From contig JAUIJD010000015.1 of NCBI GenBank assembly GCA_030431475.1, positions 1 to 64,000 on the forward strand: 64,000 bases of DNA. The letters run 5' to 3'. Shown here piece after piece: positions 5,215 through 63,198 of the stretch. The notes below the pieces were generated by a model. The model ran no database searches, was not told the origin of the DNA, and saw only the letters and a program-made list of their open reading frames with translations. This DNA is from Verrucomicrobiia bacterium (lineage in GTDB: Bacteria; Verrucomicrobiota; Verrucomicrobiia; Verrucomicrobiales; Akkermansiaceae). Both the position numbers and the translations under genes were made by a program. Positions within the stretch are counted from its first letter, which is position 1; each line of letters opens with the position of its first letter.

Positions 5215-6558
5215 ATGAACAAACGACAAGTCATCGTCCTTTGGATCATCGCCGTGGCGCTCGTCGCCGCCCTCGCGATCGTCAATTCCTCGAAATCCAA
5301 CACCTACCAGAGCGCCACCGAGCGCCAGCGGGGTGACACGCTGCTCGCCGACTTCAAGCCGGCCGAGGTCGCCGACATCGCCATCTCGCAGGGCGACGAG
5401 AGCGTCACCCTCACCCAGAAGGAGGGCGGCTGGGTCGTCACCAGCCGTGACGACTACCCGGCCAACGTCAGCGACATCAACACGCTCCTGCGCACCATCG
5501 AGGAGGTCAAGGTCACCCAGGGCGTCGAGGCCGACGCCGAGTTCGCGCCGCGCTTCGGCATGGACCCGGAGGCCAGCGACGCCGAGGAGCGCGGGATCGA
5601 CCTGGTGCTGTCGAACGACGCCGGCACCGAGCTCGCCCACCTCACCTTCGGCAAGAACACCGAGAGCGCCGGCGATCCGATGAGCCCCTTCGGCGGCGGC
5701 GGCGCCACCGGCCGCTTCGTCCGCAACCACGCGGACGCCTCCGGCATGTATGTCACCAGCGAGCTCTTCCCGACGCTCAGCACCGACGCCAGCACCTGGC
5801 TCGACGAGGAGTTCCTCACGGTCGAGAAGATCCGCTCGATCGCGGTCAGCAAGCCCGGCCAGGAAAGCGACATCGAATGGAAGCTCACCCGCGACGACGA
5901 GGAGGGCGACTTCGCGCTGGAAGGCAAGAAGGAGGAAGAGGAACTCGACTCCACCGCGATCAACCCGCTCAAGAATCTCTTCTCCTACGCCCGCTTCGAG
6001 GACGTCGTGCCCGCCGCCGATGCCGAGGAGGCCTGGAACAAGGAACAGCGGCAGCAGGCCATCATCGAGACCTTCGAGGGCTTCACCTACAACGTGACCT
6101 TCGGCCCGGAGAAATCCGAGGGTGACGCCGAGGCGCAGGACTACCTGATGCGCGTCGCGGTCACCGCCGAGCTTCCCGAGAAGCGCAAGCCGGCGGAGGA
6201 CGAGACCGAAGAGCAGGCCAAGGAGGCCGACGAGGCCTTCGCCTCCCGCAAGAAGGAGCTCGAGGAGAAGCTCGAGGTGGCCCGGCAGCTCGAGGGCCGG
6301 ACCTTCCGCGTGACCAAGTTCACCGTGGACGCCCTGCTCAAGAACCGCACCGGGCTGATCAAGTCGGCCGCCCCGGCCAACACCGGGACCACTCCGGCGA
6401 TCCCCGGCGCGACCGCGCCCGGCGGCGCCGCGCCCATGCCCCCTCGCCGTCCCACGCAGGCCGTGACGCCGCCCATCGCCATCCCGCCGCTTCCCGAAGA
6501 GGATGAGGCGGCCTCCGGCGACTCCGGCACGGACAAGGCCGAGGGCGGCGACGAGTAG
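5215..6558 (+). CDS. DUF4340 domain-containing protein
   Basis: This 447-residue protein has an N-terminal membrane anchor (IVLWIIAVALVAALAIVNS, residues 6-24) followed by an extracytoplasmic domain of the DUF4340 type. The visible family pattern is VTLTQKEGGWVVTSRDDYPA near residue 63, followed by a threonine/leucine-rich segment. DUF4340 proteins regularly follow GldG-like proteins in such operons, which is the best functional hint. A charged Glu/Lys-rich segment runs from about 320 to 365. The C-terminal 80 residues are Pro/Ala-rich and low in complexity. It is the last gene of the operon, 24 bp after the GldG-like gene, with no clear terminator after it. Confidence 0.8.
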   Translation: MNKRQVIVLWIIAVALVAALAIVNSSKSNTYQSATERQRGDTLLADFKPAEVADIAISQGDESVTLTQKEGGWVVTSRDDYPANVSDINTLLRTIEEVKVTQGVEADAEFAPRFGMDPEASDAEERGIDLVLSNDAGTELAHLTFGKNTESAGDPMSPFGGGGATGRFVRNHADASGMYVTSELFPTLSTDASTWLDEEFLTVEKIRSIAVSKPGQESDIEWKLTRDDEEGDFALEGKKEEEELDSTAINPLKNLFSYARFEDVVPAADAEEAWNKEQRQQAIIETFEGFTYNVTFGPEKSEGDAEAQDYLMRVAVTAELPEKRKPAEDETEEQAKEADEAFASRKKELEEKLEVARQLEGRTFRVTKFTVDALLKNRTGLIKSAAPANTGTTPAIPGATAPGGAAPMPPRRPTQAVTPPIAIPPLPEEDEAASGDSGTDKAEGGDE

Positions 6559-6689: not shown

Positions 6690-6779
6690 CGCCCGGAACC
6701 GTGGCCGGGGCTTCCAGCCCCGTCGCCAGGACCCAAAGCCAGTCGGGCGACGGGCCTGGAAGGCCCGGCCACATCCGCT
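6690..6779. repeat. 90-bp two-armed palindromic repeat, copy 1
   Basis: This element lies between the DUF4340 gene and the halogenase-like gene. It starts CGCCCGGAACCGTGG and ends CGGCCACATCCGCT. Two arms fold back on each other, and each arm is also a hairpin with a TTCCA-type loop: GGGGCTTCCAGCCCC in the left arm and, read on the other strand, GGGCCTTCCAGGCCC for the right. A second copy lies at 12567-12656. The first 34 bp are identical between copies, 35 of the last 36 bp match, and the central 20 bp have diverged. The rest of the gap 6559-6840 shows no gene. Confidence 0.85.
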
Positions 6780-6840
6780 CCCCTTTCAGCGACACCCGGT
6801 GCCTTCAGTCCCGCTTGCGCCCCGCGTCATTCGGCCTAAG

Positions 6841-8436
6841 ATGCGCGCAGCCATGGTCATGCCTGCGGAAATCCCGACCGTCGATTACGACGTGGTCATC
6901 TTCGGGGGGGCCTTTTCGGGTTCCGCCCTCGCGCTTCTTCTCAAACGGGCCCGGCCCGAGACGCGCATCCTCATCCTTGAGAAATCGGAGGCCTTCGACC
7001 GGAAGATCGGCGAATCGACCTCCGAGGTCGCCGGCTGCTTCATCACCCGCATCCTCGGGTTCTCCCACTACCTCGCCCGCGAGCACTACCAGAAGCACGG
7101 GCTGCGGATGTGGTTCAACACCGAAGAAAACGACTGCCCGAACTGCTGCACCGAGCTCGGCCCCTACTTCCAGGCACGCTTTCCCACCTACCAGCTCGAC
7201 CGCTCGAAACTCGACCAGCACATGCTCGAGACCGCCGTCGAGGAAGGCTGCGAGCTGGTCCGGCCGGCGAGCGTGAAGCGCTTCGAGCTGAAGGGCGCGG
7301 GCATGAACGAGGTCACCTACAAGGCCGACGGCGAGACGCACACCATCCGCGCCGGATGGGTGGCCGACTGCTCCGGCAAGGCGGCGCTCATCGCCCGCCA
7401 CCGAGGCACCATCGAACCGCTTCCCGAGCACCCGGTCCACTCGATGTGGGTGCGCTTCCGCAACGTCCGCAGCCTCGACTCGGACGAGGCCCGCCGGCTC
7501 GTCCCCGGTCTCGCCGACGGCCCGATCGTCTCCCGGGGCAGCGCCACCAACCACCTGATGGGCCGCGGCTGGTGGTCGTGGATCATCCCGCTGCCGAACG
7601 GTGAGTTCTCCGCCGGGGTCACCTGGGACGAACGGCTCTTCACCCCGCCCTCGGAAGGACGGGTCGGGCAGCGCGTGCTGGCCCACCTCAAGTCGCACCC
7701 GATCGGCCGCCTGATGTTCGAGAACGCGGAACCCGTCGAGTACGACGCCCGCATCTACAAAAAGCTGCCGTACTACTCGACCGAGGTCTGCGGCGACGGC
7801 TGGGTCACGATGGGCGACGCCGCGGGTTTCATGGACCCGCTCTACTCGCAGGGCCTCGACTACTGCGCGCACGGCACCTACGCCGCCCACAAGATCCTCC
7901 TCAAGGCGCTCGACGGCGAGTGCGTGAAGGAGCCCCTCGCCCAGCACAACCAGCAGTTCGGCGAGTCCTACCATCGCTGGTTCCGGTCGCTCTATCTCAA
8001 CAAATACCAGTACATCGGCGATGCCGACCTGATGCGCGCGGCCTTCCTGCTCGACCTGGCGACCTACTTCGTCGGACCGGTGCAGCTCGTCTACCGCTGC
8101 CCCGACAAGGAGTACTCGAAAATGCCCTACGACGGGCCGGTCGGCGCCGGGGTCGCCCGCTTCATGGCCTTCTATAACCGCCGCCTCGAGCGCGTCGCCC
8201 GCAAGCGGATCGCCAACGGTTCCTACGGCCGCCACAACCTCAAGCGGCGGATGTTCATCCGCAAGACCTTCGAGGGCAGCCCGAAGGCCCTGGGCCACCT
8301 CGTCACCGGGATCCGCATCTGGCTCTGGCTTGAGCTCCGGAACGCCTTCACCCGGCCGATCGACGACATGCCGGAGCCCACCGAGAAGGCGATGCCCGCC
8401 CCCACCGCGAAGCAGCCGGCGATGTCAGGTGGCTGA
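6841..8436 (+). CDS. FAD-dependent oxidoreductase, flavin halogenase-like
   Basis: The product is about 531 residues. An N-terminal dinucleotide-binding motif (VVIFGGAFSGSAL, 18-30) is followed by GESTSEV (57-63). A WSWIIP sequence at 245-250 fits the WxWxIP signature of flavin-dependent halogenases. MGDAAGFMDPLYSQG near residue 328 is the FAD pyrophosphate-binding GD motif. Lys85 in EHYQKHGLRMW sits where the catalytic lysine of phenolic halogenases falls. The family also includes geranylgeranyl-reductase-like oxidoreductases, so halogenation is not proven. In-frame ATGs exist at 6799, 6841, 6853 and 6859; 6841 is a compromise, as 6799 lies just after a repeat element. No biosynthetic genes flank it. 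The stop codon lies inside a 123-bp direct repeat. Confidence 0.7.
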   Translation: MRAAMVMPAEIPTVDYDVVIFGGAFSGSALALLLKRARPETRILILEKSEAFDRKIGESTSEVAGCFITRILGFSHYLAREHYQKHGLRMWFNTEENDCPNCCTELGPYFQARFPTYQLDRSKLDQHMLETAVEEGCELVRPASVKRFELKGAGMNEVTYKADGETHTIRAGWVADCSGKAALIARHRGTIEPLPEHPVHSMWVRFRNVRSLDSDEARRLVPGLADGPIVSRGSATNHLMGRGWWSWIIPLPNGEFSAGVTWDERLFTPPSEGRVGQRVLAHLKSHPIGRLMFENAEPVEYDARIYKKLPYYSTEVCGDGWVTMGDAAGFMDPLYSQGLDYCAHGTYAAHKILLKALDGECVKEPLAQHNQQFGESYHRWFRSLYLNKYQYIGDADLMRAAFLLDLATYFVGPVQLVYRCPDKEYSKMPYDGPVGAGVARFMAFYNRRLERVARKRIANGSYGRHNLKRRMFIRKTFEGSPKALGHLVTGIRIWLWLELRNAFTRPIDDMPEPTEKAMPAPTAKQPAMSGG

Positions 8437-8707
8437 CGCTTCCAGCGGCAGGCCGTCACGGCGGCTTCCAGCCGCCTTCTCCCGCCTTCCCCAAGGGCCC
8501 CCAGACCCGGAAACCCATCCTCGCCACCGCGAAGCCGGATGAATCCGGCGCTCCATTTGATGAAGCCGCCGGGAATCAAGCGTAGCTGACGCTTCCAGCG
8601 GCAGGCCGTCACGGCGGCTTCCAGCCGCCTTCTCCCGCCTCCCCCAAAGGGCCTCCGACCCGGAAACCCGTCCCCGCCACCGCGAAGCCGGATGAATCCG
8701 GCGCTCC
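8432..8707. repeat. 123-bp direct repeat pair, period 153 bp
   Basis: Two near-identical 123-bp units occupy 8432-8554 and 8585-8707, separated by 30 bp. Each contains a small hairpin CGCTTCCAGCG, a larger hairpin GGCGGCTTCCAGCCGCC with the same TTCCA loop, and a third palindrome GCCGGATGAATCCGGC followed by GCTCC. The first unit overlaps the last five bases, including the stop codon, of the halogenase-like gene. The second ends seven bases before the sixA stop. The repeats therefore fill the convergent gap between the two genes, 8437-8714, which has no other content. Confidence 0.9.
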
Positions 8708-8714
8708 CTCCCGC

Positions 8715-9197
8715 CTACCGCGGTTTCTTGCCCGCCATCATCTTCGGCGGCACGTTGTAGAGCAACCGCCCACCCCGTGTCGGCGGACTCACCACGAGGC
8801 CGATCAGCGAGCCTTTCTTGACCTCGACCCCGCCGCTGCCGGCGAGCAGCCACTCGACCAGGCTCGAGAAGTCCGGCTCGTGCCCCACCAGCATCACGCG
8901 TTCGAACTCCACGAACGCCTTCAATTCCTCCAGCGCGACCTCGGGCCGCATCCCGCAGTCGATCCACGGCTGCGTGACCGGGCCCGGCATCTCCGCAGCC
9001 TCGCAGAAATGCTCCGCGGTCTGCTTGGCCCGGACCCTCGGACTGGTGAGCACCAGATCGGGGCGCCGATCCAGCGCCCGGAGCAGGCGACCTGCTCTTT
9101 CGGCCTGCCGCACGCCCTTCTCGACCAGCTCACGCGCGAAATCCCCACCCTCGTGGAAATCCTCGGCCTTGCCGTGACGCAGCAGAACGAGCTCCAT
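8715..9197 (-). CDS. sixA: SixA-type phosphohistidine phosphatase
   Basis: This 160-residue protein belongs to the histidine phosphatase superfamily. It starts MELVLLRHGKAED, with the catalytic RHG triplet at residues 7-9. Further family motifs are LTSPRVRAKQTAEH near residue 50 and MLVGHEPDFSSL, holding the second catalytic histidine, near residue 102. The length fits SixA, which removes phosphate from histidine phosphotransfer domains; other substrates are possible. The frame can also start at a GTG at 9203, overlapping the fabG stop; I prefer ATG 9197, where the family begins. It is transcribed just after fabG and is probably co-transcribed with it. Confidence 0.8.
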   Translation of the reverse strand: MELVLLRHGKAEDFHEGGDFARELVEKGVRQAERAGRLLRALDRRPDLVLTSPRVRAKQTAEHFCEAAEMPGPVTQPWIDCGMRPEVALEELKAFVEFERVMLVGHEPDFSSLVEWLLAGSGGVEVKKGSLIGLVVSPPTRGGRLLYNVPPKMMAGKKPR

Positions 9198-9199
9198 GA

Positions 9200-9946
9200 T
9201 CACATCGTCATCCCACCGTCGACCGCGAGCACCTGACCCGTGATGTAGCGGCCCTGCGGACCCGCCAGATAAACCACCGCGTCGGCGATGTCGTCCACCG
9301 TCCCGAAGTCACCGAGCGGGATCTTCGCCAGCACGTCCTCGCGCACCTTTTCCGGCAGCACGTCAGTCATGTCGGTCGTGATGAAACCCGGCGCAATCGC
9401 GTTGCACGTGACCTTCTTGCCGGCCAGCTCGCGGGCGACCGACTTGGTGAAACCGATCAGGCCGGCCTTGCTCGCCGCGTAGTTGGACTGGCCGGCGTTG
9501 CCGATCAGCCCGATCACCGAGGCGATGTTCACGATCCTCGCGTCCTCCGCCTTCATCATCGGCCGCATGAAGGCCTTCACCGTGTTGAAGGCGCCCTTGA
9601 GATTGGTGTCGAGCACCGTCATCCAGTCCTCCTCCTTCATCCGCATCAGCAGGCCGTCGCGGGTCACCCCGGCGTTGTTGACCAGGATGTTCACCCCTCC
9701 GAAATCCTCAAGGATGCGCTTGCCGAGGTCCTGAACGGCCCCGTGATCGGCCACGTCCACCGCGTAGGCCTTCGCCGCGTCGGGATGGGCCGCGTTGATG
9801 GCCTCCGCGGTCGCGCCGCAGCTCGACTCGCTGCGGCTCACCACCGCCACCTTCGCGCCACGATCCGCGAACGCGCGCGCGATCGCACCGCCGATCCCCC
9901 GACCGCCACCGGTCACGACCGCCACCTTGCCTTCAAAGCTCTGCAT
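9200..9946 (-). CDS. fabG: 3-oxoacyl-[acyl-carrier-protein] reductase, SDR family
   Basis: This 248-residue short-chain dehydrogenase begins MQSFEGKVAVVTGGGRGIGG, with the TGGGRGIG cofactor motif at residues 12-19. NNAG lies near residue 87, the catalytic Ser near 138 and the YAASK pair (Tyr/Lys) near 151-155. The C-terminus ends GQVLAVDGGMTM, typical of FabG, the NADPH-dependent reductase of fatty acid elongation. The frame is open to 9976, but the added ten residues precede the conserved start. No fab cluster surrounds it: the divergent neighbour encodes a cytochrome c and the downstream gene is sixA. A role outside fatty acid synthesis is therefore possible. Confidence 0.85.
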   Translation of the reverse strand: MQSFEGKVAVVTGGGRGIGGAIARAFADRGAKVAVVSRSESSCGATAEAINAAHPDAAKAYAVDVADHGAVQDLGKRILEDFGGVNILVNNAGVTRDGLLMRMKEEDWMTVLDTNLKGAFNTVKAFMRPMMKAEDARIVNIASVIGLIGNAGQSNYAASKAGLIGFTKSVARELAGKKVTCNAIAPGFITTDMTDVLPEKVREDVLAKIPLGDFGTVDDIADAVVYLAGPQGRYITGQVLAVDGGMTM

Positions 9947-10033
9947 GGCGGGAGCCTGTCCCGACCGCCGCGGCATTCCAAACCGAAAAAGCGCCCTGAA
10001 AGATCCGGGCCTCCGCCGCTGTTATCCGCCTTC

Positions 10034-11074
10034 ATGCGCCGCCTTCTGATCCTCCTCGCCGGCTGCGGCGTTCTCGACGCATCCCCGCTCACTCTCGACA
10101 ACCTCCCGCTCGGCGAGGAAGCGCGCCCCCTCCTGCTCCGGACCTACGTCCCGGACCCCGGGCTGTCGAAGGAGGTCTTCGCCCATCACCACGACGCGGA
10201 TTCCTCGCCGAAGTACACCCCGAAGACCGGACGCGACATCAAGGGCCGCTACCAGCCGATCCCGGGCATCCCCGCCGCCGTCGCGGTCAACCACGGCCCC
10301 GCCCTCTCCTACGCCTTCGACACCACCGAGTGCCGCCTGCTCTACGCCTGGCAGGGCGGTTTCCTCGACATGTTCCCCTACTGGGGCGATCCGGACCGCG
10401 GCAACCGCCGGTCCTTCGGTTACGTTCCCTCGCTCGTCGGCACCGTCTTCCACCAGGCCTCGGGAGCGCCCCCGCTCGAGCTCGACGGCCGCCCGGTCGC
10501 CGAACTCGGCGACCCCGACTACCTCGGCTACGATCTGGACGAGCAGGGCGTGCCCACCTTCCGCTACCGCTTCGGCGAGCACCGCTTCTCGCTGCGCGTC
10601 GCCCCCCTCGACGACCGACCCTTCTCCTGCCGGCTCACCTTCCGCAGCGAAAGCCCCGGACGACTCGGCTACCGCGGACAGGAGGAGACGGTCTTCGACC
10701 GGGGCGTGCTGGTCGTCAACCTCCGCGGCAAGGCCCTCTCGGAGCACTCCGGCTTTCCCCGCAAGATGGCCATCGACCGTCCCACCGCCGCCGCCGGGGA
10801 GACGCTCTTCGCCAACTACGGCTGCATCGCCTGCCACAGCACCGACGGCTCCGATGGCCACGGCCCGTCACTCGCCGGTCTCTTCGGAAAGGAACGGCCG
10901 CTGACCGGGGGCACCACGGTGAAAGCCGACGACGCCTACCTCCGCGAATCGATCAAGGACCCCAACGCCCGGACTGCCGAGGGTTTCCCGCCGAACTACA
11001 TGCCGCCCTACCCGCTCAAGGACAAGGAGGTCGAATCCCTGGTCCTCTTCATCAAATCCCTTCGCGACCGATGA
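10034..11074 (+). CDS. Secreted monoheme cytochrome c protein
   Basis: The 346-residue product has a short signal sequence (MRRLLILLAGCGVLDAS) that could also be read as a lipoprotein signal. Residues 20-245 form an uncharacterised domain rich in aromatic and acidic residues. The C-terminal 90 residues are a class I cytochrome c with CIACH at 264-268 and a likely axial methionine in NYMPPY. The last four bases overlap the start of the next gene (ATGA), so the two are translationally coupled. The frame is open upstream to 9743, but the upstream part runs through fabG in the opposite sense. It probably takes electrons from, or is structurally paired with, the propeller protein encoded next. Confidence 0.8.
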   Translation: MRRLLILLAGCGVLDASPLTLDNLPLGEEARPLLLRTYVPDPGLSKEVFAHHHDADSSPKYTPKTGRDIKGRYQPIPGIPAAVAVNHGPALSYAFDTTECRLLYAWQGGFLDMFPYWGDPDRGNRRSFGYVPSLVGTVFHQASGAPPLELDGRPVAELGDPDYLGYDLDEQGVPTFRYRFGEHRFSLRVAPLDDRPFSCRLTFRSESPGRLGYRGQEETVFDRGVLVVNLRGKALSEHSGFPRKMAIDRPTAAAGETLFANYGCIACHSTDGSDGHGPSLAGLFGKERPLTGGTTVKADDAYLRESIKDPNARTAEGFPPNYMPPYPLKDKEVESLVLFIKSLRDR

Positions 11075-12510
11075 AGCCTCTCCTTCTTCTCGCCCTTCTC
11101 ACCCCGCTCATCGCCGCGGACCACCGGATCGAGGACATCCCGCTGCCGGAGGGCGTGCCGCCGGAAGTCGGCGGCCTCGACTTCGCCCCCGACGGCTCGC
11201 TCTTCGTGGTCCTGCGCCGCGGCGATGTCTTCAAGGCCACGCCGACCGACGACCCGCGGGACTTCGACTGGCAGCTCTTCGCCACCGGCTTTCACAACGG
11301 CTGCGGCATCGACGCCGTCAGCCCGTCGAAGATCCGCGTCACCCAGATGGCCGAACTCACCGAGGCCGAGGACACCGACGACGACGGCGCCGCCGACCGC
11401 TACCGACGCCTCGCCCACGGCTGGGGCCTCTCGGGGAACTACCACGAGACCAACACGCTCGTCCCCGACGGCCGGGACGGCTATTACCTCTCGATCGGCA
11501 CCGCCTCGCACAACGGCCCGACCTTCGAGCACACGCTCGGCGACTACTCGAAGTTCGGACGCCGCGGGCGCAACTTCTCGGCCGTCAAATGGCGCGGCTG
11601 GGTCCTCCACTACGGGCCCGACGGCGAACTCACCCCCTTCGCCTCCGGCTTCCGGATGCACAACGGCCTCCATCTCGATCCGGAGGGCCGGCTGTGGTCG
11701 TCCGACAACCAGGGCGACTGGAAGGCCACGACCCCGCTCTACCACATCGAGAAGGGGAACTTCTACGGGCACCCCAGTAGTCTGGTCTGGGATCCCGAGT
11801 GGCCGGACGACAAGGATCCGCTCTCCACCTACCGCGACGACCTCGACGCCTACAACGAGCACCGCACGCGGCCGGCCATCCAGATCCCGCACCGCGGGGT
11901 GAACCGCTCCGGCTCGGAGATTCTCACCATCCCCGACGGCTTCGGACGCTTCGCCGGCCAGATGATCCTCCTCGACAACAACGGCACCCGCATCACCCGC
12001 CTCATGGTCGAGGAGGTCGGCGGCGCGATGCAGGGCGCCTGCCTCCACTTCATCGACGGCGAAGGGCTCCGGTCCGGCAACAACCGGGCCCGCTTCTCCC
12101 CCGACGGTCGCCAGCTCTACATCGGCCAGACCACCCGCGGCTGGGGCAAGCTCGCGGAAGGCCTGCAACGCATCACGGCCGGCGATCCGGTCTTCGAAGT
12201 GGAAACGATCTCGCTCACCCCGAAGGGATTCAGGCTTGAGCTGACCGCGGACCTCGCCGCTGGCGATCCGTCCGGCATCGGGGTCTCCTCCTTCACCTAC
12301 CAGTCCCGCTGGACCTACGGCTCTCCGATGGAGAACAAGCGCGACCACAAGATCACGGTCGGCGGCAGCGGCCCGACTCTCGACCTGGCGGTCGAGGGCC
12401 TCGAAGCCGGCCGTGTCTACGAAATCCGCCTGCCCGAACTCGCCTCGAAGGACCGCGGCAAGCTCCGCCACCGCACCCTCTACTACACCGCCAACCGGCT
12501 GCGGGAGTAG
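11071..12510 (+). CDS. Secreted beta-propeller protein, dehydrogenase-like
   Basis: This 479-residue protein starts with a signal peptide (MKPLLLLALLTPLIAADH). Propeller-like segments follow, such as GGLDFAPDGSLFVVLRRGDV, FRMHNGLHLDPEGRLWSSDN and SPDGRQLYIGQTTRGWGK. The pattern recalls PQQ-dependent sugar (sorbosone/glucose) dehydrogenase-like proteins of Planctomycetes and Verrucomicrobia, but I see no heme motif and cannot identify PQQ ligands. The start ATG overlaps the stop of the cytochrome gene by four bases. Together they look like a periplasmic redox pair. It ends 254 bp before a convergent sulfatase gene. Confidence 0.7.
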   Translation: MKPLLLLALLTPLIAADHRIEDIPLPEGVPPEVGGLDFAPDGSLFVVLRRGDVFKATPTDDPRDFDWQLFATGFHNGCGIDAVSPSKIRVTQMAELTEAEDTDDDGAADRYRRLAHGWGLSGNYHETNTLVPDGRDGYYLSIGTASHNGPTFEHTLGDYSKFGRRGRNFSAVKWRGWVLHYGPDGELTPFASGFRMHNGLHLDPEGRLWSSDNQGDWKATTPLYHIEKGNFYGHPSSLVWDPEWPDDKDPLSTYRDDLDAYNEHRTRPAIQIPHRGVNRSGSEILTIPDGFGRFAGQMILLDNNGTRITRLMVEEVGGAMQGACLHFIDGEGLRSGNNRARFSPDGRQLYIGQTTRGWGKLAEGLQRITAGDPVFEVETISLTPKGFRLELTADLAAGDPSGIGVSSFTYQSRWTYGSPMENKRDHKITVGGSGPTLDLAVEGLEAGRVYEIRLPELASKDRGKLRHRTLYYTANRLRE

Positions 12511-12566
12511 GTGGAGGACAAGGGGTGTCAATTGAGGCGACGGGCTCGTTTGGAGCTCGTAGCGGT

Positions 12567-12656
12567 CGCCCGGAACCGTGGCCGGGGCTTCCAGCCCCGT
12601 GACCAAGTCCAACACCAAACCCGGCGACGGGCCTGGAAGGCCCGGCCACATCCGCT
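12567..12656. repeat. 90-bp two-armed palindromic repeat, copy 2
   Basis: This is the second copy of the element at 6690-6779, in the same orientation, lying between two convergent genes. Outer segments match copy 1 almost perfectly while the central 20 bp differ. Nothing else is recognisable in the gap 12511-12763, apart from a smaller palindrome of the form GCGGACTGAAATCCGC near 12731-12746. Confidence 0.85.
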
Positions 12657-12763: not shown

Positions 12764-14941
12764 TCACTTCAGCAACTCCTCGAGCTTCGGCTCCATCGCC
12801 TCGGCCCACATGCGGTAGCCCTTGCCCTGCGGGTGCAGCGCGTCGGGCATGACCTCCTTGGTCAGCACGCCTTCGTCGTTGAGGAAGGTATCGGTCATGT
12901 CGAGCCAGTGGATGCGCCCGTCGTCGGCGTGGCCCTTGATGATCTCGTTGATCCCGTCGTTGATCTTCCGCAGCTTGCCGTCGGGCTGCTCGTCCCGCGG
13001 GAAGACCGAGAGCAGGAGGATCTCGGCCTCCGGCGAACGGTCCCGCAGCAGCTCGAGGATCAGCTTGATGCCCCCCGCCGTCTCCTCCGGCGGCGCCTGG
13101 CGGTGGCCGGAGTTGTTGGTGCCGATCATCAGCACGTAGGCCTTGGGATCGACGCCGTCGAGCTCGCCGTTGAGCAGGCGCCACAGGACGTGCTCGGTGC
13201 GGTCGCCGGAATACCCGAGATTCAGCGCCTTGCGGTCGCCGTAGAACTCCTCCCACGTCGCCTTGCCGTGGCCTTCCCAGCCCTGGGTGATCGAGTCGCC
13301 GATGAAGACCAGCTCGTGGCCGCCCTTCTTCACCTCCTTGAGCTTCTGCTGGTGGCGCTGCTTCCACCACCCCTGGTCCTTGCGGTGTGCCGGCTGGGTC
13401 GCCTCGCTGACCTCGTATTCGCCGCGCAGATCGGAGTAGAGCTTCTTCATCCGCTCCAGCACATCGGCATGGGCCGGATCGTCGTGGACCGATTTCATCT
13501 CCTGCGGATCCTTCTCGAGGTCGAAGAGGTTCCACGACTTGTCCCCGGGGAAATACATCAGCTTGTAGCGGTCGTTGCAGACGCCGTCGTGCGCCGCCAC
13601 CCGGTGGGTGTGCTCGCCACTATAGAAATAGTAGAGTCCTTCGCGCCAATCCTCCGGCGCCTTCCCCGAAGCCTTCAGCACCGGCAGCAGGCTGCGCCCC
13701 TGCACCGCCTCCGGCACCTCGACGCCGGCGATCTCGAGGAAGGTCGGCGCGTAGTCGATGTTCTGGATCAGCGCCTCGCTGCGCGAGCCGGGCTCGATGA
13801 CCCCGGGCCAGCGCACCAGGAAGGGCATGGCGAAGCTCTCCTCGAACATCCAGCGCTTGTCGTACCAGCCGTGCTCCCCGAGGTAGAAACCCTGGTCGGA
13901 GGAGTAGATGACGATCGTGTTGTCGGCGAGACCGCTCTCGTCGAGGTAGTCGAGCATCCTGCCCACCCCCTCATCGACCGCGCGGATGCAGCGCAGGTAG
14001 TCCTTGATGTAGCGCTGGTATTTCCAGCGGGTGACATCCTTCCCTTCGAGCTCCCCCGATTCCACCGCGGCGATCATCGCCTGGTTCTCCTCCTCATAGG
14101 CGGCGTCCCAGGCCTTCTTCTGCTCGGCGTTCATCCGCATGTATTCGCCGTTGCGGATTCCTTTCCGGAAGTATTCGGGAAAGCGAGGCTCTCCCTTGAG
14201 CTTCATGTCGTGCCCCCAGTAGAAGTCCTTCTCGACGCTCATCGCCTGCTTCTTCAGCGAGGGATGGCGGTTGGCGTAGTCATCGAAGAGCGTCTTCGGC
14301 TCCGGCAGATCGACATCATCCCAGAGATCGGCATGGCGCAGCGCCGGCGACCAGTTGCGGTGGGGCGCCTTGTGCTGGCACATCAGGATGAAGGGCTTGT
14401 CGCCGTCGCGACCGTTCTTCAACCAGTCCAGCGCGCGCTCGGTGACGATGTCGGTGCAGTAGCCGGTGTAGCGTTTCTTCCCGCCGCCCTGCTGGAGGAA
14501 GTCGGGATTGTAGTAGCTGCCCTGACCCGGGAGGATCTCCCAGTAGTCGAAGCCCTGCGGCTTCGAGACGAGGTGCCACTTGCCGACCAGCGCGGTCTGG
14601 TAGCCGGCCTTCTGGAGCAGCTTCGGGAAGGTCGTCTGGCTGCCGTCGAAGGTCGAGTTGTTGTTGTCGAGGTAGCCGTTGATGTGGCTGTGCTTGCCGG
14701 TGAGGATGGCCGCCCGGGAAGGACCGCAGATCGAGTTGCAGCAGTAGGAGCGGGTGAAGATCGCCCCCTGTTCGGCGATGCGGTCGAGGTTGGGCGTCGG
14801 CGCCGCATCCTTCAGCGGACCACCGTAGGCCGAGATCGCATTCAGCGCGTGGTCGTCCGAAAAGATGAACAGGATGTTGGGGCGCTCCGACGCGAACAAC
14901 GCGGGAGCCAGCAGAACGAGGGCGAGAACAAGGGGTTTCAC
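12764..14941 (-). CDS. Secreted sulfatase fused to an SGNH/GDSL hydrolase
   Basis: This 725-residue secreted protein joins two enzymes. A signal peptide covers residues 1-18. An S1-type sulfatase domain covers about 20-490, with metal-binding NILFIFSDDH at 22-31 and the formylglycine signature CGPSR at 72-76, where Cys72 must be converted to formylglycine. From about 540 an SGNH hydrolase domain follows: FIGDSITQGW with Ser550, IGTNN with Gly607 and Asn609, and DALHPQGKGY with the Asp700/His703 pair. All catalytic residues of both domains look intact. A plausible job is removing both sulfate and acyl (for example acetyl) groups from one polysaccharide; the substrate is not visible. No anaerobic sulfatase maturase is encoded nearby. 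Confidence 0.9.
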   Translation of the reverse strand: MKPLVLALVLLAPALFASERPNILFIFSDDHALNAISAYGGPLKDAAPTPNLDRIAEQGAIFTRSYCCNSICGPSRAAILTGKHSHINGYLDNNNSTFDGSQTTFPKLLQKAGYQTALVGKWHLVSKPQGFDYWEILPGQGSYYNPDFLQQGGGKKRYTGYCTDIVTERALDWLKNGRDGDKPFILMCQHKAPHRNWSPALRHADLWDDVDLPEPKTLFDDYANRHPSLKKQAMSVEKDFYWGHDMKLKGEPRFPEYFRKGIRNGEYMRMNAEQKKAWDAAYEEENQAMIAAVESGELEGKDVTRWKYQRYIKDYLRCIRAVDEGVGRMLDYLDESGLADNTIVIYSSDQGFYLGEHGWYDKRWMFEESFAMPFLVRWPGVIEPGSRSEALIQNIDYAPTFLEIAGVEVPEAVQGRSLLPVLKASGKAPEDWREGLYYFYSGEHTHRVAAHDGVCNDRYKLMYFPGDKSWNLFDLEKDPQEMKSVHDDPAHADVLERMKKLYSDLRGEYEVSEATQPAHRKDQGWWKQRHQQKLKEVKKGGHELVFIGDSITQGWEGHGKATWEEFYGDRKALNLGYSGDRTEHVLWRLLNGELDGVDPKAYVLMIGTNNSGHRQAPPEETAGGIKLILELLRDRSPEAEILLLSVFPRDEQPDGKLRKINDGINEIIKGHADDGRIHWLDMTDTFLNDEGVLTKEVMPDALHPQGKGYRMWAEAMEPKLEELLK

Positions 14942-22037: not shown

Positions 22038-25000
22038 CTACCAGCCCTTGCGCAGCCGCTTCTCGCTGACCTTTTCCACCACCGGCACGTCGGGCGCGAA
22101 CAGCGACACGCGGAACTCCTCGAGCATCCACCCGTAGTCCCACAACACCGGGTTCTCCGGCTCCGCGGTCCACGCCGCGAACCACGGCTCCCAGTGCTCC
22201 CGCACCCGGTCCATCTTCTCGAGGTCCTTGCCGATCGGCAGGCTCTTCAGCCGTCCCAGACGCGAGCGCACGGCCCGCAGCCGACGTTCGTAGTCGATCA
22301 CCCGGAAATAGCCCGCCTGCCACGCGAAGCGCGGCCGGAACAACCAGGCGAGTTGCTCCTCGAGATCCTCCGCCACCTCGGCCAGGTGGCGATCGCCCTT
22401 CATCCCGTGGATCGCCTCGCGGGCGTGCTGCAGGTCCTCGGTCGCCTGCTCCAGCGAGGCCCCGATTTTCTGCGCCGCCGGCCACCACTCGCTGCGGGCC
22501 TCCTCCGCCCGCGTCGCGAACTCCTCGGCCGTCGAGATCCTGCCGCGACCCAGCGCCCCCTCCGCGGCCAGCGCGACGAGGTCGTCCGTCGGACACTTCA
22601 ACCGCGGCAACTCGATCTTCGCCATCAAGCCCAGCGGCATCTTCTTGCGCACGTAGGCCGCCTGCTCCGGCTGGGCCGCCATCATCAGGCGTGCCACCCC
22701 GGCCCGATGCGACTCCGCCGCTTCCGCCGCCCGCGAGAAGGCCCGGGTTCCCACCGTGCCTCCCTCGTCCACCAGCGCCGGGAAGGCCCGCGAACCGGAC
22801 ATCTCGACCGCCTCCGGCAGCTCCATCTCCGGCCAGCCGCTCCAGCCCGAGCTCTCCCATTCCTCGTTCGCCGACTCCTCGAAGCGCTCCTTCACCATCG
22901 CCCCGAGCTGCTGCCGGAGTTCCGACACCGAGGTGCCGAGCGCGACCTCCTCGCCCTCGTCGTCGCAGATCCAGATCTTGGTCACCAGCTCGTCCGGCAA
23001 ACGCGACCACTCGAAATCCCCGACGCCGATCTCGAAACCGGACGCTTCCGTTAGAAACGCCGCCAGACACCTGCCGACGTCCTTGTCCCGAGGCTGGGTC
23101 CACCAACGATCCGCGAACACCCGCGCCCGGTCGGCCACCGGCTGGCACGCCCGCCGCAGATGCTTCGGCAGCGAGCGGATCAGCCACTCGGCCCGCCGTT
23201 CGAGGTCGCCCGGCACCCCCCATCCCGGCAACCACTCGGGGAGATGCGGGAGCTGGTCGATGTGCACTCCCAGCGTCACGCCGTCGTCCCTCGCCCCCGG
23301 ATCGCAGCGGTAGTACACCGCGTACTCCTGCCCCTCGTGCTCGATCCAGTCGGGGAAGCCCGAGAGGTCCAGCCCTTCGAGATCCTCCAGCACCACGTCC
23401 TCGCGCCCCGGCAGGTTCGATTCCTCATGCTGCTTGCGCCAGCGGTGGAACGCCTTCGCCGTGCTCATCCCGTCCGGCAGCCGGCTCTCGTAGAAATCCA
23501 GCACCGCCTCCTCGCTCCACAGGCCGTCCCGTCGGCGCAGCTTGTGTTCCATCAGCTCGACCTCGCCGCGGAGCTCCCGGAGACGATCGACGATCCGCGA
23601 CTTCCCCTTCACCCCGCCCTGCATCAGGCCCTCGCGGATGAAGATCTGCCGCGCTCCAACCGGATCAATCCGCCCGAAATGCACCCGCCTCCCCGCCACG
23701 ATCGGCAGGCCGCCGCAGATCACCGTCTCCTTCGCGTACACCGCCCCCTGGCCCTGCTCCCAGTGACCGTCGGAGTAGCGGCACCGGCAAAGGTGCGGCG
23801 CCACCTGCTCGACCCAGGCCGGATCGATCCGTGCCAGCCGCCGCGCCCACAGCCGGGTCGTCTCGACGAGTTCCATCGCCATCACCCACTCGAAGCGCTT
23901 CCCGCCGAACAGGCCCGACCCCGGAAACACCGCAAAGACCCCCCCGCTCGCCGAGCGATACGCCCGTTCCTCGCGATCCCACAGGCCGAACTGCCGCGGC
24001 ACCCCCGCCAGCAAAGCCCGATGGAAACACGCGGAGTCCGGCAGCGCCGTGGCTGCCCCGGCCCGGGGCAGCCTGCCCGCCGTAGCCTTGGCGAAGGAGG
24101 GGCCGTGGTTGCGGCGGCCCGCCGCAAACTCTGAAGCGAGTTCATCATGCACGTTCCCCCACTCCACCACCCTCCGGTAGTTGAGAAAGTTCTCCCGGCA
24201 GAACTTCCGCAGCCGGTTCCCGTGCCACCGTCTGCCCTTGCGAAACTCCTGCAGGGCCCGCCACAGGAGCAGCACCGAGAGAAAGTCACTCTCCTCGTGC
24301 CGCCACTTCGAGTGCGCCTTGTCGGCCTCCTTCTGCTTCTCCTTCGGCCGCTCCCGCACGTCCTGCGTCTCCAGCCCCGCCACGACCGGGAGCACGTCGG
24401 CGAGCACCCCTTCCTCCCGGGCCTCCATAAGCATCCGTGCCAGCCGCGGATCGACCGGCATCCGCGCCATCTCTCGCCCCGACTCCGTGAGGTGCTTGTC
24501 GCGATCCAGCGCCCCGACCTCGCGCAAAGTACGATACCCCTCGGAGATCGCCTTCGGTGCCGGCGGATCGAGGAAGGGGAAGTCCTCGATGTCCGGCAAC
24601 CCCAGCGATTTCATCCGCAGGATCACCCCGGCCAGCGAGCTGCGCCGGATCTCCGGGTCGGTGAACTCCGGACGCGACTCGAGATTCTCCTCGTCGTAGA
24701 GCCTCACGCACACCCCCTCGCGCACCCGGCCGCAGCGTCCCTTGCGCTGGCGGGCGCTGGCCTGGCTCACGTCCTCGATCTGCAGCCGCTGCACCCCGCG
24801 CCCCGGACTCCAGCGGCTCACCCGCGCCAGCCCGGAATCCACGACGCACACGATGCGCGGGATCGTCAACGAGGTCTCCGCCACGTTCGTCGCCAGCACG
24901 ATCCGCCGCTTCGGTCCCGGATGAAACACCCGCTGCTGGTCGCCCAGCCCGAGTCGCGCGAAGAGCGGCAGCACCTCGGTGTTCCGATACCGCCGTCCCT

Positions 25001-25829
25001 CCAGCGCCTCCGCACAATCGCGGATCTCGCGCTCGCCGGGAAGAAACACCAGCACGTCCCCGTCCTCGACCCCGCTCAACCAGTCGACCGCCCGCACCAC
25101 CCCGTCGGCCAGGTCCTCGTCCTCGTCCCCCGGCATGAACCGCTCCTCCACCGGAAAGGTCCGTCCCTCCGCCTCGATGACAGGCACCGTGGCTGCCCCG
25201 GCCCGGGGCAGGCCGTGGTCGCGGCGGCCCGCCGCGTCCGCAAAGTACTCCGCAAACGCCCCCGCATCCAGCGTCGCCGAGGAAATCACGATCCGCAGCT
25301 CCGGCCGCCGCGCGAGCAACCGCTTCAGATACCCCAGCAGGAAGTCGACGTTCAGCGATCGCTCATGCGCCTCGTCGAGGATCAGCGCATCATACCGCCG
25401 CAGATCCGGATCCCCCTGCGTTTCCGCCAGCAGGATCCCGTCGGTCATGAACTTGATCCGCGTCTCCTTCGAGGTCCGGTCCTCGAAGCGCACCTGGTAG
25501 CCGACGAATCCGCCCAGCGGCACCCGCAGTTCCTCTGCCACCCGCTCCGCCACGCTCGCCGCCGCGATCCGCCGCGGCTGCGTGCAGCCGATCCAGCGGG
25601 CTTTCCCACTCCGCAATCCGCAATCCGCAATCCGCGATCCGAGCGCCTCCGCCACCATCTTCGGCAGTTGCGTCGTCTTGCCGGACCCCGTTTCCGAAAC
25701 GACGACCACCACCTGGTGCTCGCGGATCGCCTCCACGATCTCGCGCCGACGCGCCACCACCGGCAGCGCCTCGGGATAGTTCAGCTTCGGCAAGCCATTC
25801 CGCATCGCGCGCGGAGCAAAACCCGGCAC
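22038..25829 (-). CDS. hrpA: ATP-dependent RNA helicase HrpA
   Basis: This 1263-residue DEAH-box helicase has SETGSGKT at 45-52, DEAH at 152-155, SSAT at 183-186, then helicase C-terminal motifs (TNVAETSLTIP, QRKGRCGR) and the long HrpA-specific C-terminal half (DUF3418-type). E. coli HrpA, about 1300 residues, rescues stalled ribosomes; the same role is likely here. Three stretches do not belong to the family and correspond to repeats in the DNA: near 64-75 (7-bp tandem repeats), 199-215, and 569-595. The last two encode nearly the same peptide around GLPRAGAAT or RLPRAGAAT. All keep the frame. Start is ATG 25829, with ATG 25805 as alternative. It is divergent from a sulfatase gene across an inverted repeat. 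Confidence 0.92.
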   Translation of the reverse strand: MPGFAPRAMRNGLPKLNYPEALPVVARRREIVEAIREHQVVVVVSETGSGKTTQLPKMVAEALGSRIADCGLRSGKARWIGCTQPRRIAAASVAERVAEELRVPLGGFVGYQVRFEDRTSKETRIKFMTDGILLAETQGDPDLRRYDALILDEAHERSLNVDFLLGYLKRLLARRPELRIVISSATLDAGAFAEYFADAAGRRDHGLPRAGAATVPVIEAEGRTFPVEERFMPGDEDEDLADGVVRAVDWLSGVEDGDVLVFLPGEREIRDCAEALEGRRYRNTEVLPLFARLGLGDQQRVFHPGPKRRIVLATNVAETSLTIPRIVCVVDSGLARVSRWSPGRGVQRLQIEDVSQASARQRKGRCGRVREGVCVRLYDEENLESRPEFTDPEIRRSSLAGVILRMKSLGLPDIEDFPFLDPPAPKAISEGYRTLREVGALDRDKHLTESGREMARMPVDPRLARMLMEAREEGVLADVLPVVAGLETQDVRERPKEKQKEADKAHSKWRHEESDFLSVLLLWRALQEFRKGRRWHGNRLRKFCRENFLNYRRVVEWGNVHDELASEFAAGRRNHGPSFAKATAGRLPRAGAATALPDSACFHRALLAGVPRQFGLWDREERAYRSASGGVFAVFPGSGLFGGKRFEWVMAMELVETTRLWARRLARIDPAWVEQVAPHLCRCRYSDGHWEQGQGAVYAKETVICGGLPIVAGRRVHFGRIDPVGARQIFIREGLMQGGVKGKSRIVDRLRELRGEVELMEHKLRRRDGLWSEEAVLDFYESRLPDGMSTAKAFHRWRKQHEESNLPGREDVVLEDLEGLDLSGFPDWIEHEGQEYAVYYRCDPGARDDGVTLGVHIDQLPHLPEWLPGWGVPGDLERRAEWLIRSLPKHLRRACQPVADRARVFADRWWTQPRDKDVGRCLAAFLTEASGFEIGVGDFEWSRLPDELVTKIWICDDEGEEVALGTSVSELRQQLGAMVKERFEESANEEWESSGWSGWPEMELPEAVEMSGSRAFPALVDEGGTVGTRAFSRAAEAAESHRAGVARLMMAAQPEQAAYVRKKMPLGLMAKIELPRLKCPTDDLVALAAEGALGRGRISTAEEFATRAEEARSEWWPAAQKIGASLEQATEDLQHAREAIHGMKGDRHLAEVAEDLEEQLAWLFRPRFAWQAGYFRVIDYERRLRAVRSRLGRLKSLPIGKDLEKMDRVREHWEPWFAAWTAEPENPVLWDYGWMLEEFRVSLFAPDVPVVEKVSEKRLRKGW
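24047..24125. repeat. In-frame palindromic insertion in hrpA, long copy
   Basis: This copy shares its left 25 bp (ending in the palindrome TGCCCCGGCCCGGGGCA) and its right 24 bp with the copy at 25187-25235, with one base change. Between them it carries an extra 30 bp, including the stretch GCCGTAGCCTTGGCGAAGG, that the other copy lacks. Both total lengths keep the hrpA frame once flanks are counted. Read in the hrpA frame it gives the peptide segment PSFAKATAGRLPRAGAAT, a string I recall from repeat-derived insertions in proteins of unrelated bacteria. Confidence 0.8.
25187..25235. repeat. In-frame palindromic insertion in hrpA, short copy
   Basis: This 49-bp repeat unit around TGCCCCGGCCCGGGGCA is nearly identical to the two ends of the 24047-24125 copy. 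It encodes residues of about 199-215 of HrpA, just after helicase motif III, where other HrpA proteins go directly from the AEYF segment to PVI(E/D)V. Confidence 0.8.
25611..25638. repeat. 7-bp tandem repeat inside hrpA
   Basis: Four tandem copies of CCGCAAT (the fourth is CCGCGAT) lie in the hrpA coding region. They encode part of an extra loop, about residues 64-75, between motif I and motif Ia that has no counterpart in the usual family pattern. Confidence 0.75.
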
Positions 25830-63151: not shown

Positions 63152-63158
63152 TCGTGGC

Positions 63159-63175
63159 GGTGGCTTCCAGCCGCC
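63159..63175. repeat. TTCCA-loop hairpin after ppdK
   Basis: GGTGGCTTCCAGCCGCC folds with six base pairs (one G-T) around the same TTCCA loop found at 6690-6779, 8432-8707 and 12567-12656. It begins eight bases after the ppdK stop and precedes the real terminator. Confidence 0.6.
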
Positions 63176-63198
63176 GTGCCTTTACCCCAGGCTTCCCA

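Follow-up and report, generated by a model that had tools for sequence, protein, structure and literature searches.

Positions 1 to 64,000 of contig JAUIJD010000015.1 from a Verrucomicrobiia bacterium (assembly GCA_030431475.1; 4.73 Mb in 109 contigs, hereafter G000), the stretch that we call the window, carry two 90-bp palindromic elements at 6690-6779 and 12567-12656. Judged by their sequence, both are REPINs, doublets of repetitive extragenic palindromes (REPs) and small mobile DNA elements, and this report concerns them and their candidate transposases, the REP-associated tyrosine transposases (RAYTs). Copy 1, placed between open reading frames (ORFs) 5215-6558 and 6799-8436, has a core at 6701..6772 with arms at 6701-6727 (+) and 6746-6772 (-) around an 18-bp spacer, and copy 2, placed between ORF 10330-12510 (+) and ORF 12764-14941 (-), has a core at 12578..12649 with arms at 12578-12604 (+) and 12623-12649 (-); neither core as a whole has a strand. 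Both cores run GTGG...CCAC, and outside the GTGG terminus of copy 1 lies a flank, CGCCCGGAACC (6690..6700, +), which is common to copy 2 (12567-12577) and is carried more or less exactly by several other genomic copies. The original prediction had noted a 34-bp identity, a 35/36 match on the other side and a diverged central 20 bp, and we counted 34/34 matching bases on the left, 35/36 on the right and 10/20 in the centre. Each hairpin is built from GT-GGC, a 6-bp stem, a 5-nt loop (TTCCA in both elements), the returning stem, one or two bulged bases and GCC. The covarying arms reported earlier (GGGGC/GCCCC and GGGCC/GGCCC) were borne out, with stems CGGGGC/GCCCCG in arm 1 and CGGGCC/GGCCCG in arm 2, both 6/6 paired around TTCCA. 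A swapped C-G/G-C pair separates the arms of a doublet, while each small hairpin stays intact. We refer to this hairpin type as family A.

Such hairpins are dispersed through the source genome. The 22-base arm GTGGCCGGGGCTTCCAGCCCCG, searched with up to 3 mismatches, gave 36 genome matches and its reversed-pattern control none, and the pattern GTRGC-N6-TTCCA-N6-(1-2)-GCC gave 35 matches against 3 for the control. A covariance model, as proposed in the original prediction, was built from 20 hairpins and returned at least 70 genome matches at E<=0.01 (150 candidates scored, without a negative-control genome). One end of the palindrome bears the GTAG or degenerate GTRG tag of the GTAG superfamily of REPs: the tag was GTGG in 34/35 and GTAG in 1/35 of the pattern matches, the pattern itself demanding GTRG, and GTGG in 35/36 and GGGG in 1/36 of the matches to the 22-base arm, where mismatches were allowed. 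Inverted pairs of arms within about 100 bp amounted to 14 distinct doublets, each 66-73 bp long, and these include the two window copies. As for the intergenic bias that was to be checked, 33/40 hairpins did not lie within one coding frame on both sides, a figure that comes from a rough codon score without gene calls; of the remaining seven, which lie in one frame, five belong to the two RAYT cassettes described below. By the same score, two REP hairpins outside the cassettes (C86:12667 and C76:16337; L024 and L038) apparently lie in coding frame, the latter with another compensated stem, CGGGTC/GACCCG.

We then measured covariation in an alignment of 20 hairpins that combined the ends of ispG-embedded RAYT cassettes from several species with window and genome copies. 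Cells with a double change numbered 23 against 5.7 in shuffles, with 0/500 shuffles reaching 23, and the covariation score was 0.572 in the true register against at most 0.103 in slid registers. Paired cells made up 96.7% of 120 versus 73.6% in shuffles, a percentage that is biased upwards because the hairpins were chosen for looking like hairpins. Two of the five measures were unexceptional, namely the pairs with a double change (4 vs 2.9, 116/500 shuffles as high) and further pair types (9 vs 6.7, 25/500 shuffles as high). The double changes and the pairing uphold the earlier reading of the paired changes as selection on a folded form. The constant TTCCA loop, which went with that reading, failed across species: ispG-embedded cassettes elsewhere have GTCTC, GTCCC, GGCCC or TTGCA loops in the same architecture, and TTCCA as a universal loop was rejected. 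At the loci examined, the two arms had unlike stems in 11/14 distinct doublets and like stems in 3/14. Under DNA folding parameters, the energies of the small hairpins of a doublet summed to -14.2 to -14.5 kcal/mol in 9/11 unlike-arm doublets. A long stem joining both arms contained 2-5 mismatches in the unlike-arm doublets versus 1-3 in the three like-arm doublets, and the energies of the long form overlapped (-17.8 to -33.6 kcal/mol with unlike arms, -31.4 to -37.5 kcal/mol with like arms). The pattern of stem change points to the single arms as the folded unit, whereas the calculated energies leave the choice between the two forms undecided.

The layout had been likened to REP elements and bacterial interspersed mosaic elements (BIMEs) moved by RAYTs, with a search for a RAYT-type (Y1 transposase) gene proposed. 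The Y1_Tnp profile matched the source genome 19 times, and at 2/19 of these stretches, on contigs C29 and C23, TTCCA hairpins were close on both sides; at two stretches, L046 and L049, such hairpins lay about 1.6-3 kb from the match. Both hairpin-flanked RAYTs are nested in frame in host genes on these other contigs, beyond the earlier reader's view. The C29 RAYT is flanked by family A hairpins (5029 and 5095 on the left, 5785 and 5831 on the right) inside one uninterrupted frame of a 1371-aa DUF5107/TPR protein, and the C23 RAYT by hairpins of a second type, the sister family B, inside one uninterrupted ispG (IspG/GcpE) frame. Pfam found host domains and Y1_Tnp in one ORF. Each embedded RAYT of the source genome is flanked by its own dispersed REP family, and, as read from open frames, neither stands alone as a gene bounded by a start and a stop codon of its own. 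To follow the link between family A and its RAYT, we compared 12 genomes picked from those at hand. The TPR-embedded RAYT was present in G000, G017, G001 and G096 (59-100% identity, frames of 1380-1906 aa), the last of these belonging to another family of the order, and family A hairpins numbered 29, 44, 3 and 22, respectively. The eight genomes without it had 0 family A hairpins and a best RAYT match at most 52% identical; their matches in frames >800 aa were embedded RAYTs of other host genes. The comparison strengthened the REP-RAYT link. With many dispersed copies, compensated stems, RAYT genes flanked by the same hairpins and one hairpin family accompanying one RAYT across the 12 genomes, the likeness to REP/BIME-RAYT systems was upheld.

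The embedded domains combine a RAYT family profile with the HUH motif and a single catalytic tyrosine. NCBIfam REP_Tyr_transpos matched 20/20 embedded domains at E<=0.001, the one member displayed (L047) scoring 76.1 bits against a curated cut-off of 80, and the best solved structure by sequence was TnpArep 4er8. The HxH (HUH motif) and the Tyr were invariant in 20/20 aligned embedded RAYTs, a conservation that favours retained activity. We estimated the ratio of nonsynonymous to synonymous substitutions (dN/dS) for 11 pairs and used five (RAYT dS 0.08-1.08). The RAYT gave a dN/dS of 0.09 in IspG, 0.05 in LeuS, 0.08 in CarB, 0.08 in adenosine deaminase and 0.11 in ValS, the IspG pair (L088/L157) resting on few changes, with 0.02-0.10 in the host flanks of the same pairs and looser values of 0.17-0.89 in the REP-encoded linkers. 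Pairs L218/L219 (dN/dS 0.06) and L094/L160 (0.12), with RAYT dS >2, L119/L150 (0.28), with almost no changes, and the saturated L145/L151, L167/L193 and L183/L185 were set aside. An AlphaFold model of one IspG-RAYT fusion (L157), for which 5/18 alignment rows were fusions, was confident in the RAYT domain, where 17/19 ten-residue blocks (351-540) had a predicted local distance difference test score (pLDDT) of 83-94, of low confidence in the linkers and of mixed confidence in IspG. With this single polypeptide model Foldseek retrieved both IspG entries and 4er8, a TnpAREP-hairpin complex (E 1.6e-5).

With the ispG-embedded RAYT as query, we searched 144 genomes including its own, and RAYT matches at E<=1e-20 were found in 88/144. 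By our own count, at least 55 of the matches listed lay in frames of at least 500 aa. We re-read 52/55 and recovered the ORF for 50 (L144 and L147 gave none). The same host reference was matched on both sides of the RAYT in 46/50 ORFs, reference loci included; the hosts were MetH (12), LeuS (11), IspG (9), CarB (5), TPR/DUF5107 (4), adenosine deaminase (3) and HsdR (2). Among the ORFs outside the 46, L150 was cut by a contig end, and spurious long frames were not counted (L133, with CinA on one side only; L154 and L156, without a host match). A public genome collection yielded 80 kept loci, some duplicating those of the relatives, and in 41/80 the RAYT had a host gene in frame with it on one side or both (BLAST or Pfam, our own tally; L168 was included because of a weak BLAST match and because it falls close to L162 in the RAYT tree). 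Further hosts were ValS, AlaS, DinG-type helicases, XseA, Sua5, a poly(A) polymerase-type enzyme, Eco57I/MmeI-type methylases and others, and the record titles named Verrucomicrobia, Planctomycetota, Armatimonadetes, Kiritimatiellae, Bacteroidota, Ignavibacteriales and Chloroflexales, although metagenome bins may be mistitled. Within a gene the same linker recurred, by eye at the printed loci, in LeuS 13/13, MetH 18/19, CarB 7/7 and ValS 3/3. At L091 (G129, ispG) and L222 (metH) the RAYT occupied a site unlike the others of that gene, suggesting independent insertions. RAYTs were also seen in large restriction/methylase enzymes of the Eco57I/MmeI and HsdR types (L161, L176, L180, L206, L218, L219, L224, L228, L143 and L152). 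Assembly chimera as a general cause was rejected, because embedded RAYTs occur on single-contig genomes (G002 ispG on a single 5.7-Mb contig; G083 metH on a 4.16-Mb contig) and in the Rubritalea marina DSM 17716 record (metH, L179). A PF01797 search of 288 genomes of the phylum gave best-scoring matches that, by eye, were nearly all in frames <270 aa, with one in a frame >500 aa (G217, 567 aa). Embedded RAYTs score low against PF01797 and are therefore absent from this best-scoring list, which cannot count them; the list shows that Y1 genes of the phylum do not generally lie in long chance frames.

The history of the insert was read at ispG. The N-terminal part of IspG was present in 137/144 genomes, and nine with fragments or broken frames (G005, G006, G075, G084, G096, G120, G127, G130 and G133) were left out. 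A RAYT occupied 9/128 complete ispG genes, eight at one linker and, in G129, at a different one. We read the linker itself in 24 empty genes and in four more with long frames, the other empties being called from frame length; the linker measured 37-52 aa in 21 empty genes with a DPFSY-type motif versus 277-313 aa in occupied genes. Long ispG frames without a RAYT (G024, G134, G104, G115 and G072) proved to be N-terminal read-through. The ispG of G096 (L267), split by a frameshift and without insert, reflects a sequencing error or a pseudogene. RAYTs of the common site, site 1, formed one group in a quick tree (13 rows, 11 different; 95 in the Shimodaira-Hasegawa-like approximate likelihood ratio test, SH-aLRT), while the tree of the 11 ispG RAYTs alone was weak, with 1/8 inner branches starred. 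Across 10 loci the identities of RAYTs and IspG flanks were uncorrelated (Spearman -0.06, one-sided Mantel p 0.61; p 0.62 with more strictly cut flanks). In G002 and G017 the IspG flanks were 88% identical and the RAYTs 51%; at L088/L157, RAYT dS was 0.08 versus 0.27-0.42 in the host flanks. On a 38-row IspG tree in which occupied genes are over-represented, occupancy changed at least six times. Vertical inheritance alone was rejected on the absent correlation and the L088/L157 dS mismatch. The record suggests that RAYTs arrived laterally, or were replaced, at one fixed position, a pattern and not a proof given ten loci and weak RAYT branches, and lateral transfer, conversion and rate differences all stand as accounts that may explain the discordance.

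We consider it very probable that the window elements are REPINs moved by RAYTs that are themselves in-frame inserts in host enzymes. The window elements would be non-autonomous REP-hairpin doublets mobilised by Y1/HUH transposases of the RAYT (TnpAREP) family. Each arm would fold into its own single-stranded hairpin for recognition, and, since it must fold alone, stem changes would be kept only as pairs. The cognate RAYTs are not free genes, that of family A lying in the DUF5107/TPR gene on C29 and that of family B in ispG on C23. REP hairpins begin and end each cassette, and their DNA also encodes the linkers between RAYT and host protein. The ribosome would read straight through, so that the RAYT would be produced as a folded domain anchored within a linker of a functioning enzyme. 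Loss or frameshift of the RAYT would break the host enzyme, so the RAYT would be protected, and from this position it would provide nicking and joining of REP hairpins in trans for REPINs elsewhere. A broader proposition, to which we give about an even chance, is that RAYTs form a widespread class of protein-embedded transposases, carried as translated domains in linkers of essential enzymes in several phyla (ispG, metH, leuS, valS, alaS, carB and others), spreading laterally to the same linker like inteins without splicing and driving REPIN populations in trans, with the essentiality of the host guarding against loss.

Several observations weigh against this explanation. In 14/14 doublets the folding predictions gave the long two-arm hairpin a higher stability than the pair of small ones. 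Two of the three family A hairpins of G001 sit at the RAYT itself, and 17/19 Y1_Tnp matches of the source genome lie in frames of at most 446 aa. The insert is dispensable, as ispG is empty in 119/128 relatives. Draft and metagenome assemblies make up most of the genome set, and the count leans towards embedded RAYTs, since one of these served as query and ORFs were picked by their length. The purifying selection seen on the RAYT may stem in part from a need to avoid misfolding within the enzyme. The L157 fusion model is poor outside the RAYT (mean pLDDT 62.6, predicted template modelling score 0.36), and geometry from it was rejected.

Among the alternatives, domestication survives best, and we regard it as unlikely: the embedded RAYT would serve the host enzyme, in regulation or oligomerisation, and would no longer move DNA. 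Purifying selection on the RAYT close to that on the host enzyme speaks for it; it is opposed by the many unrelated host enzymes, the catalytic residues intact in 20/20, the near-identical REPs dispersed in the same genomes and the patchy occupancy of ispG. It is improbable that we are dealing with an ordinary REPIN/RAYT system in which the in-frame position of the RAYT is an insertion accident in tolerant genes, without lasting significance. In-frame REPs within ORFs of Opitutus terrae and Rickettsia, known from the available passages of PMC3733652, make such accidents conceivable, as do the short frames of most Y1_Tnp matches in the source genome, but the same linker of the same gene is hit in many genomes (ispG 8/9 at one site, with leuS, metH and carB recurring likewise), the ispG-site-1 RAYTs form one group in the quick tree, and RAYT dN/dS is far below 1. 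That the paired arms are RNA hairpins, terminators or mRNA stabilisers whose covariation comes from selection on RNA, would suit the placement of both window REPINs between ORFs and of one hairpin two bases past a stop codon, yet we find it highly improbable, as hairpins of this kind also delimit RAYT cassettes within ORFs and the hairpin family accompanies one RAYT across genomes. Removal of the insert before function by RNA or protein splicing, as an intron or intein, is scarcely credible and was rejected: recurrent sites in essential enzymes do recall inteins, as does a discordant phylogeny at one site, but no intein, Hint or other splicing domain was among the Pfam matches listed, no Rfam family, Group I/II self-splicing introns included, reached the gathering threshold in 8 loci (74,470 bases), the 46 counted ORFs (selected for length) show no break of frame across the REP linkers, and the insertion sites are variable linkers.

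The embedded RAYTs and their REPINs have partial parallels. Inteins share the in-frame position, the recurrent sites of essential enzymes and the discordance with the host gene, but here no splicing domain was found, the sites are linkers, and a transposase takes the place of the homing endonuclease. Rickettsia palindromic elements are small and are not known to carry a transposase gene. They too are palindromic DNA inserted in frame in protein genes, as mentioned in part of PMC3733652. In the sections available of Bertels and Rainey (2011, PMC3116915), the REPINs of Pseudomonas fluorescens resemble ours in having two inverted REP hairpins around a short centre, in being dispersed and in their relation to RAYT-adjoining REPs; RAYTs there are separate single-copy genes, apparently immobile by themselves, with a phylogeny largely congruent with that of the species, whereas those described here lie in frame in host genes and are discordant at ispG. 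The GTAG-type REPs and REPtrons of Di Nocera (2013, PMC3733652), including those of Opitutus terrae, share the tag (GTAG; GTGG in most O. terrae elements), the short stem-loop, REPs in ORFs and a REP-flanked RAYT, but in the passages at hand RAYTs are genes of their own, none described inside another gene. The TnpAREP/TnpAY1 survey of Quentin (2018, PMC6006769) shares the HUH-Y1 core and REP flanks; in its available portions inserts lie inside TnpA, not TnpA inside other proteins.

We found no report of a RAYT lodged in frame in an essential enzyme in the open-licence literature searched, supplementary files and subscription papers aside. The terms 'in-frame', 'fused' and 'Verrucomicrobia' do not occur in the searchable main text of PMC6006769, 'in-frame' and 'fused' are among terms not occurring in PMC2817692, and a RAYT inside a host gene is not described in the passages available of PMC3733652, PMC6006769, PMC8266576 and PMC3116915. 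REP, REPIN, RAYT and in-frame REPs are already established, and the window elements are a new member; what varies is the lodging of the RAYT itself inside a host gene. The available discussion of PMC3116915 raises the question of how RAYTs and REPINs persist against extinction, which arises because RAYTs seem to exist as single copies that cannot move on their own. In-frame residence in an essential enzyme would answer this question, as deletion or frameshift would break the enzyme, and it could explain how such transposases avoid loss. Embedded RAYTs also offer a ready-made series of large domains inserted at orthologous linkers, and since one fixed locus carries different REP stems and loops in different species, the coevolution of REP and recognition becomes testable.

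The window holds other hairpins of these types, and those claimed earlier with a TTCCA loop at 8432-8707 and 63159-63175 were confirmed by loops starting at 8440, 8466, 8593, 8619 and 63165. A family B element at 8429..8476 (+) consists of a GTGGC-TGACGC-TTCCA-GCGGCA-GGCC hairpin and a second hairpin, CGGCGGCTTCCAGCCGCC, and resembles in type the hairpins that close off the RAYT cassette in ispG; its second copy, with a GTAGC foot, lies 153 bp downstream (8582..8629, +). Within 8429-8707 both the family B double hairpin and another palindrome, GAAGCCGGATGAATCCGGCGCTCC, occur twice, 153 bp apart, a twofold layout that we judged by eye to be a tandem duplication. A single hairpin, GTGGC-GGTGGC-TTCCA-GCCGCC-GT-GCC (63154..63180, +), starts two bases past a TAA. 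A hairpin with a GGCCC loop (25189..25216, +) lies in frame in ORF 22038-25829 (-), which by its motifs looks like a DEAH helicase. The hairpin encodes GRRDHGLPRAGAATVP there, and all its 28 bp agree with one end of the RAYT cassette in the ispG of the congener G017. A second hairpin of this type, with 3 mismatches, lies in frame in the same ORF (24049..24076, +), and both encode peptides resembling the right-hand linker of the G017 embedded RAYT (L089). Three hairpins of the source genome, one of them in the window, are identical to G017 ispG cassette ends, which would fit past activity of a G017-like RAYT in this genome.

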